From assembly GCA_022402445.1 (NCBI GenBank), contig JAKRSF010000006.1, positions 584,540 to 648,539 of the forward strand: a stretch of DNA of 64,000 nt, in the 5' to 3' direction. This document shows positions 4,289 through 32,253 of this stretch, piece by piece. Origin of the DNA: Cyanobacteriota bacterium (GTDB lineage Bacteria > Cyanobacteriota > Cyanobacteriia > CACIAM-69d). How positions within the stretch are numbered: the stretch's first letter is position 1; every line of letters starts with the position of its first letter. The position numbers and the translations under genes are program-made. The notes under the pieces are model-generated. The model made no database searches, was not told where the DNA came from, and saw only the letters and a list, made by a program, of their open reading frames with translations.

Positions 4289-4936
4289 ATGGCAAGGCAA
4301 TTTCCCCAGCAATGTCCCCAGCAGCGGCGCGGGCGCGGGGGGGCGGGGCGTCGTCGCCTCTGGCAACGGGGGGGGCTGCTCGTGGCGATCGCCGTGGGGT
4401 GCTGGAGTTTGCTGGTGGCGGGGGCCGGGGCCACGCCCATCGGTGCCGCCCCTTCACCCTCGACGGCGGTGATGGCCTCCCTCTTTGGCCCCCTGTTTGC
4501 CGGTCAGCGGCCCAATAGTCTGGGGGTTCACGATGGCCAATTGAGCGCCTGCCCCCCTAGCCCCAACTGCGTCAGCACCACCGCCGCCCCGACGGATCTC
4601 TCCCACGCGATCGCCCCCTTGACCTATGACGCCGCCGATGGGGCCGCCGCCGACCAGGCATGGCAAACCCTAACCGCCCTGGTGCAGGACAGCGAAGGGG
4701 TCACCCTCGTGACGGCGACGGAGGATTATCTCTATGCGGAATTCACCACGCCCTTGATGGGGTTTGTGGATGATGTGGAATTCCACCGCGATCGCGCCGC
4801 CTCCGAAATCCAAGTGCGCTCCGCCTCCCGCCTGGGGGAATCGGACCTGGGGCTCAATCGCCAGCGCATCGAGCGGATCCGGGGCCAGTTCGAGCGGCAG
4901 CAGCGGCTCTCCGCCAATCCCTTGGGCCATCCCTAG
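4289..4936 (+). CDS. DUF1499 domain protein, secreted or membrane-anchored
   Basis: This 215-residue protein starts with a long Arg-rich n-region followed by a hydrophobic stretch (GGLLVAIAVGCWSLLVAGAGA), which reads as an uncleaved anchor or Sec signal. The rest is a complete DUF1499 domain: CPPSPNCVST near residue 88, a YLYAEFTTPLMGFVDDVEF core and the terminal signature IQVRSASRLGESDLGLNR. DUF1499 proteins have no established biochemical role; they are common in cyanobacteria and chloroplasts and are often annotated as lumenal or periplasmic. It sits between two RTX genes on the same strand with gaps of about 130 and 70 bases. Confidence 0.85.
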   Translation: MARQFPQQCPQQRRGRGGAGRRRLWQRGGLLVAIAVGCWSLLVAGAGATPIGAAPSPSTAVMASLFGPLFAGQRPNSLGVHDGQLSACPPSPNCVSTTAAPTDLSHAIAPLTYDAADGAAADQAWQTLTALVQDSEGVTLVTATEDYLYAEFTTPLMGFVDDVEFHRDRAASEIQVRSASRLGESDLGLNRQRIERIRGQFERQQRLSANPLGHP

Positions 4937-5006
4937 GGCACCCGAAATTCCCCCGCCGTGGGCCAACGGCAACCAACCCGATCGCAGCGATGCACCAAAG
5001 CGACCC

Positions 5007-5759
5007 ATGACCCCTGGCTTCAATGGCAGATTTTTTGACCTGAGCGATCGCCCCGAGCGGTTTCAGGTCTCACCGGGCTTTTTCGTTGGGCCAATTGGCC
5101 GTGGCACCGAACAGTTGCGCGCCCTCGGCGGCGATGACACCCTTTTGGGCTCCCAGGATCTGGACGTGCTCAATGGAAATATGGGCAATGATCTGGCCTA
5201 TGGCGGCGATGGGGGCGATCGCCTCTTCGGTGGCCAGGGGGCCGATACCCTGTTGGGGGAAGGGGACAACGACGCCCTGTTTGGCAATCGCGGCAATGAC
5301 CTCCTCGATGGCGGCGCAGGCAATGATCTGCTGCGGGGGGGCCGCGCTAACGATACCCTCATTGGCGGCGAGGGGGATGATACCCTCATTGGCGATGTGG
5401 GCAGCGATGTGCTCACGGGGGGCTCGGGGCGCGATGTGTTTGTCCTGCGGACGGATCTGGCGATCGCCAACCCCAGCGCCGTGGATCGCATCTTGGACTT
5501 TGATGTTAATGGGGACTTGATCGGCCTCACCGATGGGGTGACCCTGGCCCAGCTCCAGTTTGTGCCCTTCACCGATGCGGCGGGCCTGCCCCCCGGTGCC
5601 CCCGAAGGGACGCCCGCCCCGCCGCCCGTTTCCGGCACCTTGATTCAACTGGCTCCCGATCGCATTTTGGGGTTTGTGGTGAATGTGCCCCCCGATGCCT
5701 TCACCTTTCCGGGCATTAGCCGCTTTACGGATGCTTCACAGTTGGTGCGGATTACCTAA
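5007..5759 (+). CDS. Short RTX calcium-binding repeat protein (paralogue 2)
   Basis: This is a 250-residue RTX protein. The frame stays open upstream, but that part is the out-of-frame shadow of the DUF1499 gene. The ATG at 5007 gives MTPGFNGRFFDLSDRPE, which matches the start of paralogue 1 (FYDLTDAQD). Repeats run from about residue 35 to 145 (GGDGGDRLFGGQGADTLLGE, GGAGNDLLRGG), followed by DVFVLRTDLA and ILDFDVNGDLIGLTDGVTL, the same C-terminal module as paralogue 1. A Pro-rich insert (PAPPPVSG) lies near residue 210. It has no signal peptide. Repeats are expected to bind Ca2+ extracellularly. The pattern points to tandem duplication. Confidence 0.85.
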   Translation: MTPGFNGRFFDLSDRPERFQVSPGFFVGPIGRGTEQLRALGGDDTLLGSQDLDVLNGNMGNDLAYGGDGGDRLFGGQGADTLLGEGDNDALFGNRGNDLLDGGAGNDLLRGGRANDTLIGGEGDDTLIGDVGSDVLTGGSGRDVFVLRTDLAIANPSAVDRILDFDVNGDLIGLTDGVTLAQLQFVPFTDAAGLPPGAPEGTPAPPPVSGTLIQLAPDRILGFVVNVPPDAFTFPGISRFTDASQLVRIT

Positions 5760-6212
5760 GTGTTTAGTTTTTAGGGGTTGAGGGGTCGCAAGGCCGATTG
5801 CGAAAGGCGTTCTGTCCTGGTTCCCGACGGGCGGCAATTTATTAAACTGTCCCATGGCCGCCGGGGGGCACAGCTCCCTTGCCTACACTCAAAGTGACAC
5901 CTGTGACGTGACGGGATCCGCGATGCCCGCGATCGCCGGGGGCGGGTCCACCTGAGGGAGTTGAGTGAACGTGACCCATGGCGATCGCCGGGGGCCGATG
6001 ACCGCTCCGGCTCTCCCTAGCAACCAATCCATCTCGTCCTATTGGGGTGCCTGGGGCGGCGATCGCGGTAACCACCACCCAACCGCGCCCAGGAATTGAG
6101 CCCCCCTGGGTCGATGAACGGCTCCCGCCGGTGCGAAGGACATCCGCGAGCCCTTCCATGGACCCTTTCGGTGGAGCGTACTGTCTGTAAGTGTGTAGAT
6201 CAGGAGGCCGTT
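5760..6212. other. Intergenic region upstream of the DUF4214 gene
   Basis: No gene is supported in this 450-base gap. It contains HIP1 sites and a cluster of three GTGAC pentamers around 5896-5912 that could be part of a regulatory site but is not diagnostic. The last 12 bases hold CAGGAGG, a strong ribosome binding site for the gene starting at 6213. Confidence 0.4.
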
Positions 6213-6830
6213 ATGACGTCCCATAAGCCCTATTTAGCGATCGCGATCGCCCTCTTGACCCTGGGGGTCACCGCAGGCCAAGCCCAAGCCCAGGTGGAAT
6301 GCCGCTGGGAAAATAACCGCCCCGTATGCCGCGACGCCGGGGCCGGAACCACGAATAACAGCCGCGATCGCCGCTATGACGACGATGATGATCGCTACTA
6401 CGATCGCCGCTACGATGACCGGCGTTATGACGATCGCTACTACGACCGCCGCTATGACGATCGCTACGATGATCGCTACGACAGCCGCTACAACAACGGC
6501 CGCTATTACAACTCCAACAGCCGATCGCGCATCAGCCGCGACATTGAACGGCTCTATCAAGACGTCCTCGGGCGCAACCCGGATCGTCGCGGTCTAGATA
6601 CCTACGTCGATCGCGTCGCCGACGGCAGTTGGGATCTCCTCCGGGTGCGGCGGGATCTGGCCGAAAGCCGCGAAGCCGCCGACGCCATCGATCGCGTCTA
6701 CCGGGAAGTGCTGGGCCGCAGCGCCGACTCCAGTGGCCTACGGACCTATCAACAGCGCCTGCGGGAGGGCTGGAGCCTTTCGCGGGTGCGGCAATCCCTG
6801 GCCGACAGCAACGAAGCCCGCCGCCGCTAG
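6213..6830 (+). CDS. Secreted DUF4214 protein with Asp/Arg/Tyr-rich linker
   Basis: The start is fixed by CAGGAGG five bases before the ATG. The 205-residue product has a Sec signal peptide (KPYLAIAIALLTLGVTAGQAQAQ, cleavage near AQA/QV), then a short Cys-containing region (VECRWENNRPVCRD), a low-complexity linker of about 50 residues made of YDDR, YYDRR and YDDRY units, and two DUF4214-type helical repeats (RLYQDVLGRNPDRRGLDTY and RVYREVLGRSADSSGLRTY). DUF4214 occurs next to RTX and surface proteins and is suspected to act in assembly or anchoring. Its place between RTX paralogues 2 and 3 suits an extracellular role. The linker DNA is built around the GATCGC core of HIP1. Confidence 0.85.
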   Translation: MTSHKPYLAIAIALLTLGVTAGQAQAQVECRWENNRPVCRDAGAGTTNNSRDRRYDDDDDRYYDRRYDDRRYDDRYYDRRYDDRYDDRYDSRYNNGRYYNSNSRSRISRDIERLYQDVLGRNPDRRGLDTYVDRVADGSWDLLRVRRDLAESREAADAIDRVYREVLGRSADSSGLRTYQQRLREGWSLSRVRQSLADSNEARRR

Positions 6831-6944
6831 ACCCAATCCCCATTCAAGCTTGCGAGGGACGCGATCGCGAACTCCCTAGAGCAACCATCGCGATCGCCCA
6901 CTTGCCATCTGTCTATCCATTGTTTCAATTTCCCATCATCAACC

Positions 6945-7619
6945 ATGGCCTACCTCGATCTCACCAACGGCAACGATTCCATCGCCCTGCTACCGGGTCA
7001 GGCCGGCCCCCTCGGCACCCGCGCCCTCGCCGGGGATGACTTTGTGCAGGGCTCCGCCGGGGACGACATCGTTTTCGGCAACGGGAGCAATGACACCCTC
7101 GCGGGGGTAGACGGCAATGACTTTCTGCTCGGCGGCCAGGGCAATGACCTGATCGTTAGCGGCAACGGCAGCGACATCCTTGCGGGGAACGTGGGGGATG
7201 ACTTTCTGCAGGGGGATGCGGGCAGCGACATCCTGCGGGGCGGCGAGGGCAACGATGTGCTGATCGGCGGGGCGGACAATGACTACCTGGCGGGGGATTT
7301 CGGCACCGATACGATGATCGGCGGCGACGGGGCGGATATCTTTGGCATCAATGTGGCGGAAGGGTTTGCATCGCTCCGGAATGCGGACATCATTGCGGAT
7401 TTCCAGGCCGGTGTGGATGTGCTGTCGGTGAATGCCCAGGTGAATTTGCACTTTGATTCGAGTGTGGACTATTCCAATTTGCTGGGCCTGGGCGGTGGCG
7501 CACGCGATACGGTGGTGCGCCAGGGGGGGGCGACGGGGCCGATCCTGGCGGTGATTCTGGATACGGATGATCGCGATGCGGCGATCGGCTTCCAGAATGG
7601 ACCGGGCTTTTTGGCCTAG
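6945..7619 (+). CDS. Short RTX calcium-binding repeat protein (paralogue 3)
   Basis: This is the third RTX protein of the cluster, with 224 residues. It begins MAYLDLTNGNDSIALL, equivalent to the DLTD/DLSD starts of paralogues 1 and 2, then ALAGDDFVQGSAGDD and repeats to about residue 130 (GGQGNDLIVSGNGSD, GGEGNDVLIGGADND). The C-terminal module is DIFGINVAEGF, DIIADFQAGVDVLSV and a terminal FQNGPGFLA. It has no signal peptide, so type I secretion would be expected; the exporter is not in the window. A good intrinsic terminator follows. It is more divergent from paralogues 1 and 2 than they are from each other. Confidence 0.85.
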   Translation: MAYLDLTNGNDSIALLPGQAGPLGTRALAGDDFVQGSAGDDIVFGNGSNDTLAGVDGNDFLLGGQGNDLIVSGNGSDILAGNVGDDFLQGDAGSDILRGGEGNDVLIGGADNDYLAGDFGTDTMIGGDGADIFGINVAEGFASLRNADIIADFQAGVDVLSVNAQVNLHFDSSVDYSNLLGLGGGARDTVVRQGGATGPILAVILDTDDRDAAIGFQNGPGFLA

Positions 7620-7665
7620 GGGTCTGGGGGATCGTTTCTGGATTTTCGGTATGGTAATGGATTTG

Positions 7666-7692
7666 GGGCGAGGATTCTCGCCCTTATTTTTT
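7666..7692 (+). terminator. Intrinsic terminator after RTX paralogue 3
   Basis: A perfect 7-bp stem (GGGCGAG / CTCGCCC) with a GATT tetraloop is followed by TTATTTTTT. It lies 47 bases after the stop codon and closes the RTX cluster. Confidence 0.85.
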
Positions 7693-7862: not shown

Positions 7863-7908
7863 AAGTAGTTAGCCGACAATTGCGATCTAATAAGTAGTTA
7901 GCTGACTA
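7863..7908. promoter_or_regulatory. Direct repeat with palindromic second copy, upstream of HEPN-like gene
   Basis: Two 15-base copies (AAGTAGTTAGCCGAC at 7863-7877 and AAGTAGTTAGCTGAC at 7892-7906) differ at one position and start 29 bases apart. The second copy extends into a near-perfect palindrome, TAGTTAGCTGACTA (7895-7908), centred on AGCT. It ends 12 bases before the ATG of the HEPN-like gene, where an autoregulatory operator would be expected. No repressor gene is adjacent, so the binding protein may be the HEPN-like protein itself or lie elsewhere. This is a sequence observation only; regulation is inferred. Confidence 0.5.
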
Positions 7909-7920
7909 AGATAATACAGC

Positions 7921-8658
7921 ATGAATGATTTGACAAAGTCCGAACGACTCCGTTCCTTTATCCTGGAGAATGTTGATTCTCTGGAGTTTGAAGCCTTTGG
8001 TTTCCCATTTGACGAAGTGCCAGATTTTGAGCTTCATGCACGGGATTACTTGCAATATGCTAAAGAAGAGATAAATAGAGGTGCAGATATTAACCTCATC
8101 AACTGTATTGGCAATTTGAAAAGAGCTTTGGATTGTCAGGTGGATTCTTATCTTCACACATTCAATCTATTAGATCTGGTTCGGGGGAAAAATCTAGGAA
8201 TAGACAAGAAGCTTGAATTTCTTAGTAAAGTTGGAATTTTCAGTTCCCGTTCTCTGTCTCGCTTTAACACCATTAGGAATAAAATCGAGCATGAATATAA
8301 AGCTCCGCACATTGAAGACATTGACGTTTATTTCGATCTTATTTCTGCGTTCACCTCGATTTTGGAGAGGGAAACATTAATCCACAGCGAGCTTGAGGGT
8401 TTTTTCAATGGGATACGGAATCAATTCACCATTAAGTATCAAAGAGATCAGATTTGTATTGAAGTAAACTGGGGACAGTATGATGAAGATGCTTTGAAAA
8501 AAGGAGAAGTGAAGCTGAAAAATGAACCTCTAATTGCCTGTGCAAAAAAAGATATTGACGAATTTACATTCTTTTTCAGAGTACTAAACCTGATGTCCTT
8601 GCTGGCAGTCAGACACAGTAGCCGCTCTTATGTAAAATCTCAATTGAAAGGAATCTAA
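7921..8658 (+). CDS. HEPN-like protein, AT-rich orphan gene
   Basis: The function of this 245-residue protein is not recognised at family level. It contains a helical region (about 39-145) laid out like a HEPN domain: helix ARDYLQYAKEEINRG, helix NLKRALDCQVDSYLH and the motif FNTIRNKIEHEY with R119 and H124, an Rx4H motif of the kind that forms the HEPN ribonuclease site. The C-terminal 100 residues (FTIKYQRDQICIEVNWGQYD and a hydrophobic helix LLAVRH) match nothing I know. Codon use is AT-rich and the gene lacks HIP1, unlike its neighbours, which suggests acquisition. HEPN proteins are common in toxin-antitoxin and phage-defence systems, but no nucleotidyltransferase or other partner is next to it. 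HEPN call moderate; RNase activity inferred. Confidence 0.6.
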   Translation: MNDLTKSERLRSFILENVDSLEFEAFGFPFDEVPDFELHARDYLQYAKEEINRGADINLINCIGNLKRALDCQVDSYLHTFNLLDLVRGKNLGIDKKLEFLSKVGIFSSRSLSRFNTIRNKIEHEYKAPHIEDIDVYFDLISAFTSILERETLIHSELEGFFNGIRNQFTIKYQRDQICIEVNWGQYDEDALKKGEVKLKNEPLIACAKKDIDEFTFFFRVLNLMSLLAVRHSSRSYVKSQLKGI

Positions 8659-8668
8659 TAAATAGACC

Positions 8669-8809
8669 TTGTCTCTTACAATAATTACAATAAATGCCAG
8701 CCAACAACGCCAGGGCAAAAGCGAGTTTGCTTGGTTTTACGCCAATCTGACTGGCTGGAGGGCCGGTCGCGAAAAACCTGACCACTACGTTACAGAACTA
8801 CCAGGTTAA
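8669..8809 (+). CDS. Possible 46-codon ORF or gene remnant
   Basis: A TTG-initiated frame of 46 codons follows the HEPN-like gene by ten bases. The second half reads like real protein (SEFAWFYANLTGWRAGREKP, ending VTELPG). There is no convincing ribosome binding site and no family is recognised. It could be a small partner of the HEPN-like gene, the tail of a deleted gene, or chance. Confidence 0.25.
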   Translation: MSLTIITINASQQRQGKSEFAWFYANLTGWRAGREKPDHYVTELPG

Positions 8810-8823
8810 GGAAAGAAGTTGCG

Positions 8824-8855
8824 GGGGGCGAGGGAACTTGCCCCCTTGGTTTTTT
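8824..8855 (+). terminator. Probable intrinsic terminator closing the HEPN island
   Basis: A GC stem (GGGGGC / GCCCCC with a ten-base loop) is followed by TTGG and a six-T run on the plus strand. It lies between the converging HEPN-like and rnz genes and could serve both, though the T-run favours the plus strand. Confidence 0.55.
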
Positions 8856-8868
8856 CTGTGCTGTTTAT

Positions 8869-9879
8869 CTATTTTTCGGTGATTTTGGCGGCTTTTTTGG
8901 TCCCTTGGGTGGGTTGGGGCGCTTCGGAACTGGCGCTGGGGAGGGGCGATCGCCGTCTGGGAATTTCGTAGGACCAGAAGTCTTTGGCCATGTGGGTATT
9001 GGGGAAGATGGCGCGGGCTTCGTCTAATAGGTCCTTGAGTTCGATCGCGTTGCCCGGTGCGTAGCGGGGGCTGAAGTGGGTGAGGATCAAGGCTTCGACC
9101 CCGGCCCCGAGGGCGGTCTGGGCGGCCATGGTGGAGGTGGAATGGAGCCGATCAAAGGCCAGTTGGGCATCCTGGTGGGCGAAGGTGGCTTCGTGGATCA
9201 AGACATCGGCCCCCGCTGCGAGGGTGACGGCGCGATCGCAGTAGACCGTATCGGTGCAGTAGACCAGCTTGCGGCCCGTTTCGGGGGGCGCGCAAAAGTC
9301 TTGACCATTGAACCGCTGGCCGTCCGGGAGGGTGACGGTTTCGCCCCGCTTGAGTTGGCCATAGAGGGGACCGGCGGGGATGCCAGCGGCGATCGCGCGA
9401 TCGAGGTCAAAGCGCCCCGGCCGATCCTTTTCAACAAAGCGATAGCCAAAGGCCGGTACCCGATGCTCAAGGGGCGCGCAGGTGACGAGGTATTCTTCGT
9501 CCTCAAAAATCACTCCAGGCTCGACCGGATGGACGGTGATCGGAAAAGAAAACCGCGTTTGGGAATAGCGCTGGCAGGCTTTGAGGTAATCCGCCAACGG
9601 CGGCGGCCCATAGAGATCAATCGGGTGGGGCTGCCCCGCTAGGCCAATGCTCGCCAGCAAGCCCATCAACCCAAAAATATGGTCCCCGTGCATGTGGGTG
9701 ATGAAAATGCGGGTGATCTGGCTAGGGCGCAGGTCGCTGCGCAAAAACTGGTGCTGGGTGCCTTCGCCGCAGTCGAGCAGCCAAAGCTCTGACCGCTGGG
9801 GCAGTTTCAGGACGATGCCCGAGACGTTGCGCGATCGCGTGGGTACGCCGGAACTGGTTCCCAAAAACGTGACTTGCAC
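8869..9879 (-). CDS. rnz: Ribonuclease Z (tRNA 3' processing endonuclease)
   Basis: RNase Z is a zinc phosphodiesterase of the metallo-beta-lactamase fold that cuts pre-tRNA 3' trailers. The frame is open further upstream, but the family start (M/V)[14 protein letters not shown] corresponds to a GTG at 9879, giving 336 residues. GGGAG lies 11 bases before it. The catalytic HxHxDH motif is [11 protein letters not shown]; downstream ligands appear in [17 protein letters not shown] and [10 protein letters not shown]. The C-terminal 30 residues after WSYEIPRRR are low-complexity and variable. The gene converges with the HEPN-like gene. Confidence 0.95.
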
Positions 9880-10526
9880 GGCGATTGTGTCTCCCGTAAA
9901 CCAATAAAACCCACCAAGGTCAACCCTGGGGTCCGCTTCCATGGTGCCATGGGGCTGCCCCCGCGATCGCCAACCCTAGCCGCCCCGCCATGAATCCCGA
10001 GGGTTCGCAGCATTAACCTGAACAACGAGGCGACCACCCATAAACTTTCTCTAACGGATCAACAATTAAAACTGATAACGCTCCTATAACAGGAATATCG
10101 CCCATGGCCGTGGCAGGGCGCGATCGCTGACGATTTCCACGCCGCTTCCCCCCTACAGGACCGCGTGTCCCCAGGAGCATTTTCTGGCCGACCCCTGGAT
10201 GTGATGACCCCCTAGGGACAATGGATCGATTTCCTGGCGCTGGAGCCGCCAAAAACGCAAGATTAGATTTGTAATCTTGCATCATGCCATCGAATATCGG
10301 ATTCCGAGGGATGAGGCATCCGATCGCCCCCGCCCCGCGTACTAAAAACCAGAGATCCGGGGCCAAAGGCCAGAAACTCCAGACCAGCCACAACAAGACC
10401 AACTAGAAACCGACTGGGGCAGGGGGTCACCACCGCCGCCCCAGGGCCACCAAGGCAGAACCTAATGGGAGGAACCGTCGTCAGAGTTAAAAATTTCTAA
10501 AAAGAGTTGTCTTGAGGGTGTTAATT
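9880..10526. other. Intergenic region between rnz and a small hypothetical gene
   Basis: This 650-base gap has no supported protein gene. It holds the rnz promoter at its left end, a perfect hairpin at 10257-10280 and, at the right, an AT-rich stretch (about 10480-10525) with GAGGG before the next gene. An uncharacterised small RNA is possible, but no known RNA family was recognised. Confidence 0.4.
10252..10280 (-). terminator. Perfect hairpin with T-run on the minus strand
   Basis: GCAAGATTA (10257-10265) and TAATCTTGC (10272-10280) form a 9-bp stem with a six-base loop. Read on the minus strand it is followed by GTTTTT, the layout of an intrinsic terminator. No minus-strand gene ends here, so it may terminate a non-coding transcript or be a protein-binding palindrome. 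Confidence 0.4.
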
Positions 10527-29278: not shown

Positions 29279-29935
29279 GGATCTAGAACCAGCAGCAATA
29301 GGGGTGGCACTGGCGAGATGCCGCGATCGCACCGGACTCACCGGGCGACACAATTTCGACGACTTCGGACATTCAGAAGAACGCATCATGGACCCACAGG
29401 CGATCGCAATGGTGACCCTTCAGACCCCGAGGCCGACCTCGTAACAAACCGACAGGAATCGATAGAACTCGAAACCGTCTGAACCGTAGTCCCTAGAGGA
29501 GGTCTGAACAGTGGACACCGTAGCCATGGCCTTGGCCTGATCCCTCGCCAATCGGAACGTTGGGAACCTTGAGCCCTTCGCCCCACCGAGGTCTAATCCT
29601 AGATCACGAGATCAGGTCCTAAGGGGCACTGTCCAGACATCCTCTCAACAAGCGTATCCCCCGATGGCACCCCAGGGTCCGTATTCCCTAGATCATCCCA
29701 TAGGAACGGAAGCGCAATTGTTCAACCTAATGTCTGACTTGATAGTTCGCGATCCTTCGTCAATCGGCGGCCCACCCCCAGCTACGGCTTAGCAAATCTT
29801 TGGCAAGGCTTCATGGATACGCAACAGGATCCCCGCCGCGATCGCCCCCACCCGGAACGGTTTGAACCTCGCCCCCGCCGCCCCCCAACAACAGTGCTAG
29901 TATCTTGGTTTGTTGCCAGCGATCCCGGCTGGCGG
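29279..29935. other. Divergent region between the cyclase gene and the thiC leader
   Basis: About 650 bases carry no supported gene. The right end holds a TAGTAT hexamer at 29898-29903, a possible -10 element for thiC, and a GCCAGC/GCTGGC hairpin at 29915-29933 just before the TPP aptamer. The middle part has few HIP1 sites and shows nothing recognisable. Confidence 0.4.

Positions 29936-31454
<1,519 letters not shown>

Positions 31455-32181: not shown

Positions 32182-32253
<72 letters not shown>

Follow-up and report, generated by a model that had tools for sequence, protein, structure and literature searches.

HEPN domains carrying an Rx4-6H motif are predicted to be metal-independent RNases that leave cyclic phosphate ends, and several of them are abortive-infection proteins (Anantharaman et al. 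2013, PMC3710099). We analyzed a gene for a protein of this kind in a 64,000-nucleotide stretch of a Cyanobacteriota genome (hereafter the window; assembly GCA_022402445.1, contig JAKRSF010000006.1). Like the RNases described in PMC3710099, its product is predicted to have a four-helix bundle, in which helix 3 ends with the motif and a polar N follows the R. It differs from them in giving no match to the Pfam models of the superfamily and in having a C-terminal beta/alpha part of its own.

A second point of comparison is the integron cassette HEPN family represented by Vpc_cass2 (PDB 3JRT), a protein described as helical, in which two additional helices separate helix 3 from helix 4 (PMC3548836). 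The window protein shares with it the HEPN bundle and a conserved motif, and four relatives of the window protein are likewise carried by integron cassettes. The model of the window protein lacks the two-helix insert (nothing helical intervenes between helices 109-125 and 131-152) and ends in a beta/alpha part. The modelled architecture, compared with 3JRT as published, thus places the window protein outside the described cassette family. When PDB chains were searched with a profile, 3JRT was absent from the matches with E values of 10 or less, but HEPN families often lie beyond sequence detection.

HepT of the HepT-MntA system also shares the HEPN fold, and the SO_3166-SO_3165 and MntA-HepT entries align with the window model at Z 9.3-9.5. 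However, no MNT nucleotidyltransferase gene was found to adjoin the window gene, and none occurs in the annotated loci of its relatives. Because the window gene has no such neighbor, it is not a HepT-MntA pair. AbiF, AbiD, AbiJ, AbiU2 and AbiV are likewise predicted HEPN RNases proposed for phage defense, but the window protein matches none of the PADLOC models.

The gene and its immediate neighborhood

The coordinates of the gene, of the parts of its product and of the nearby sequence elements are given in Table 1.

Table 1. Features of the HEPN locus (positions in the window)
Feature	Position	Strand	Remarks
Stand-alone HEPN protein gene	7921..8658	+	Intact frame, 245 aa; AT-rich island; relatives in several phyla
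Pair of 15-nt direct repeats (AAGTAGTTAGCYGAC), 29 nt apart	7863..7906	+	Just 5' of the start codon
Helix and strand at the N-terminus (residues 6-26), not part of the HEPN core	7936..7998	+	Model secondary structure
HEPN helical core, residues 40-152	8038..8376	+	AlphaFold2 helices; PDB HEPN matches over residues 31-154
Predicted active-site motif R119-N-K-I-E-H124	8275..8292	+	R, N, E and H invariant in the 18-sequence alignment
C-terminal beta/alpha part, residues 157-243	8389..8649	+	Full-length model; no confident structural match
Terminator-like hairpin with T-run, 3' of the HEPN gene	8823..8846	+	Consensus match only

A sequence-only reading of this DNA had described the gene as AT-rich and free of HIP1 sites. 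Both statements are true. The GC content is 37.8%, versus 61.1% across the window, and is the lowest of any equal-sized segment in the window. The HIP1 point is of little value, because 12% of the window's 738-nt stretches also contain no site, and the absence of HIP1 is weak evidence of foreign origin. Base composition and the patchy distribution of the family (see below) are stronger arguments, and by these the gene is foreign to its cyanobacterium and was probably acquired horizontally.

The same reading had seen no antitoxin next to the gene, and this was borne out: no same-strand ORF of at least 60 aa was found in the AT-rich island, and the neighbors are an RTX-repeat gene upstream (6945-7619) and a tRNase Z gene downstream on the opposite strand (8869-9942). 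The tRNase Z gene was rejected as a functional partner, as it is present in all five other genomes searched from the same taxonomic family, and a HEPN gene adjoins it in none of the four regions read. Synteny on the HEPN side is absent in related genomes, hence an empty site could not be demonstrated. A 46-codon frame downstream of the gene (8669-8809) has a protein-like translation and is perhaps a gene remnant; our searches found no homologue, and it was rejected as an antitoxin on this ground. The direct repeats upstream have too few units for a type III antitoxin RNA. They are a possible operator, which is a guess. A further terminator-like site lies between the RTX-repeat gene and the HEPN gene (7665-7684).

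The window copy was also considered, and rejected, as an integron cassette. The stretch 8690-8808 looks attC-like by eye, yet folds no better than shuffled sequences (z -0.3 to -0.5). No attC fold better than shuffles was found after the gene (8659-8808), there is no second copy of the attC-like stretch in the genome, and no integron integrase scored over the cut-off in the source genome.

Other features were seen in the window. Just 5' of the HEPN gene, a DUF4214 gene lies between two RTX calcium-binding-repeat genes (4764-7619). Farther along are a TPP riboswitch (Rfam RF00059, 59.9 bits) at 29930-30055 on the forward strand and a tRNA gene at 32182-32253 on the reverse strand.

Predicted fold, active-site motif and C-terminal part

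An AlphaFold2 model of the full-length protein, computed from an input alignment of nine sequences, reached a pLDDT of 87.3 and a pTM of 0.85, with helices at residues 40-53, 56-80, 94-103, 109-125 and 131-152. The top Foldseek match in the PDB, with E 0.12 and probability 0.99, was 2hsb, which is a HEPN protein. When the Foldseek PDB matches were aligned with VIA-align, nearly all of the top 24 alignments were to HEPN structures, with Z from 12.2 to 8.4. The first was again 2hsb (Z 12.2, 113 residues, 3.1 A); taken alone, a Z of 12 for a helical bundle could reflect a common arrangement. Other HEPN structures among these top alignments were 4nqf, the sacsin HEPN domain 3o10, HepT and Csm6. 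A library of viral structures gave no match at E <= 0.001. In our judgement, membership of the HEPN superfamily by fold and motif is secure, because the top PDB alignments are near-exclusively HEPN and because of the position of the motif. The four-helix bundle, on which the sequence-only reading had staked its HEPN assignment, is thus present in the model at about residues 31-154.

That reading had also placed an Rx4H motif, RNKIEH, at residues 119-124 of a helical N-terminal half, and in the model these residues are the last part of helix 3 (109-125). By itself an Rx4H motif is not significant: one occurs in 32% of shuffles of the window protein, and the protein has a second, RETLIH, at residue 150. 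The longer form RN-x3-H occurs in 2.4% of shuffles. RNKIEH is significant because it is invariant in 18 divergent family members and because, in a model with the HEPN fold, helix 3 ends with it. In the family alignment, whose mean column identity is 29%, R119, N120, E123 and H124 are the only invariant columns, so that the R and H on which the assignment depended are conserved in the homologues. K67, in helix 2, and P129 are nearly invariant. Helix 2 also carries D75 (14 of 17 sequences) with no clear Ex3[KR]; a second conserved acidic residue there, often within Ex3[KR], is typical of many HEPN families, though not of all.

A separate C-terminal domain of no recognized fold had likewise been proposed, and the model agrees: about 90 residues form a beta-sheet with two helices and have no confident structural match. 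The strands are at residues 157-162, 167-174, 179-187 and 204-207, the fourth being short, and the helices at 212-229 and 235-243. In the full-length model, block means of pLDDT over residues 157-245 range from 70 to 94, and the pLDDT is 62 when this part is predicted alone. The low value may mean that the part needs the HEPN bundle to pack against, or may reflect only a shallow, divergent alignment. Structure searches with this isolated model returned nothing above noise. PUR and Whirly nucleic-acid-binding chains recur among the matches to the C-terminal part (Z 4.1 for 3nm7, with 72 residues aligned, and Z 3.6 for 4kop, with 69) at scores within noise, and the modelled likeness is only a lead. 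Among relatives the C-terminal part varies, and it is shorter in those of Acinetobacter and Serratia.

A rare and patchy family

Searches of the window protein against the Pfam, PADLOC and NCBIfam models at E values up to 10 gave no match, and Pfam models of the HEPN superfamily matched only single relatives, weakly. The protein belongs to the known HEPN superfamily, and its family there is unnamed, absent from these three libraries and possibly described elsewhere. The gene had been called an orphan. This holds for its neighborhood, which contains no partner gene, but not for the family, whose members were found in plasmids, bacterial genomes and viral contigs, and among Cyanobacteria, Bacillota, several Proteobacteria and Campylobacterales.

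The distribution is rare and patchy. Among 386 cyanobacterial genomes, the family profile found a credible member only in the window's own genome; among another 196 genomes, sampled from the order to which Symplocastrum torsivum belongs, the S. torsivum genome alone carried one. Gammaproteobacterial genomes had matches in 3 of 369. Two weak candidates were not accepted as members: a partial match (E 7.7e-4) inside a 753-aa frame (L002), and a weak cyanobacterial match with internal stops (L017). In the phylogenetic tree, the window protein groups with the Symplocastrum protein (support 99/98), and the pair is placed beside two viral-contig proteins with weak support (80/85), a placement that would fit transfer through phages.

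Two relatives are disrupted. The one in Burkholderia (L005:8022-8486) lacks the N-terminal half, and the one in a Campylobacterales metagenome assembly, where an error is possible, is split into two frames (L043:7613-8445).

Genomic contexts of the relatives

Integron cassette arrays, recognized by repeated attC-type sites at cassette spacing, hold four relatives, and prophages or viral contigs hold five (L007, L013, L014, L030 and L031), these shares being biased by the collections searched. The integron-borne relatives, all flanked by attC sites, are two on Vibrio plasmids (L003 and L015) and two in gammaproteobacterial genomes (L040 and L041), with nine copies of the site in L041. In one of these genomes (L040:6279-8651; G536), three HEPN-like genes occupy consecutive cassettes: a DUF4145 gene, a gene with an RNELYH motif and the family member. 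Among the phage-associated relatives, one has terminase and integrase-like genes nearby (L007) and another integrase and HNH genes (L031). A third, with 28% GC, is opposed in orientation to the phage genes and adjoins a PIN_8 gene (L013).

The neighborhood survey that the sequence-only reading had proposed found defense genes near two relatives and none beside the window gene. One is an RT-TIR gene (PADLOC RT-TIR_XII, E 4e-184) near the Serratia relative, and the other a HEC-01A/B pair a few genes away from the Campylobacterales relative. The Serratia plymuthica island (L012:4751-9872) comprises the RT-TIR gene, the family member and an adjoining 389-aa gene with a Swt1-type HEPN match. Contexts of mobile elements and defense genes could point to a defense role only indirectly, by guilt by association and not as proof. 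Accessory regions are rich in defense genes anyway.

A different arrangement is found on the Acinetobacter baumannii plasmid p2VB280821 (L004:3739-10339), where 7 bp separate rtcB from the start of the family member and the genes run rtcR, ribonuclease Z, rtcB, HEPN, DIP1984-type gene, rtcA. This would place a gene predicted to cut RNA within a locus for RNA repair. We found no published description of this rtcB-HEPN arrangement of A. baumannii.

Proposed function and alternative explanations

The window protein is probably a mobile single-gene HEPN RNase of the anti-phage type. By analogy with described HEPN RNases, two protomers would pair so that their motifs join into one metal-independent active site, which would cut RNA to leave 2',3'-cyclic phosphate ends. 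The C-terminal part may keep the enzyme quiet, or may recognize a phage trigger or the RNA substrate, and activity during infection might stop translation and so act as abortive infection; these last two steps are weaker than the first two. Fold and motif conservation are computational findings, whereas RNase activity, toxicity, trigger and defense role are what we infer for the window protein. The anti-phage reading appears the most likely because Rx4-6H HEPN proteins are predicted RNases, several of them Abi proteins, and anti-phage genes are now known to abound in integron cassettes (PMC12409362). Against it, the window gene has no adjoining defense gene, and the relative in the RNA-repair operon fits a stress role better. 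Taken as a whole, the reading of a HEPN endoribonuclease encoded by one horizontally acquired gene, belonging to an unnamed mobile family and acting in infection as an abortive-infection protein, has in our view about an even chance of being right.

The A. baumannii locus, with rtcR and rtcA around the rtcB-linked gene, is what makes an RNase of stress or growth control, coupled to RtcB-type repair, the main rival. Such an enzyme, not mainly anti-phage, would cut tRNA or mRNA under stress, and re-sealing of an RtcB type would make the pause reversible. We consider this rather unlikely: a single relative lies in an rtc context, the others being in mobile elements or isolated, and no rtc gene adjoins the window gene. 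The fold match to HepT toxins (Z 9.3-9.5) and the frequent carriage of toxins by integrons and prophages would also suit the toxin half of a toxin-antitoxin system, with its antitoxin encoded elsewhere or made as a small RNA. This is distinctly unlikely, however, given that neither an MNT gene nor any other antitoxin-like gene adjoins the window gene, that the genes adjoining relatives change from locus to locus, and that the downstream 46-codon frame has no homologue.

A non-catalytic RNA-binding protein, or a decaying gene without current function, would suit two observations: RNA binding has been proposed for HEPN domains without the motif (PMC3710099), and two relatives are disrupted. This reading is all the same very improbable here, as the motif is fully kept in 18 of 18 aligned sequences, very distant ones included, and the window frame is intact.

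Within the anti-phage reading, a more specific picture is that of toxin and regulator in one chain, in which the C-terminal beta/alpha part would restrain the RNase and sense a phage product or RNA. The gene would then be a minimal one-gene defense unit moving between integrons, prophages and chromosomes across phyla, and for the branch linked to rtcB, the operon's RNA ligase would re-seal the cuts and so make them reversible. We consider this picture speculative and unlikely.

Biological meaning

If the anti-phage function is confirmed, the set of compact anti-phage genes would grow by a one-gene RNase family, and there would be a testable role for integron cassettes whose function is unknown. 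Work on rtc induction in Salmonella did not identify the tRNA-cutting enzyme behind it (PMC7790460). With the rtcB-linked relative, one could test directly whether the broken RNAs on which bacterial Rtc repair acts come from a HEPN enzyme.
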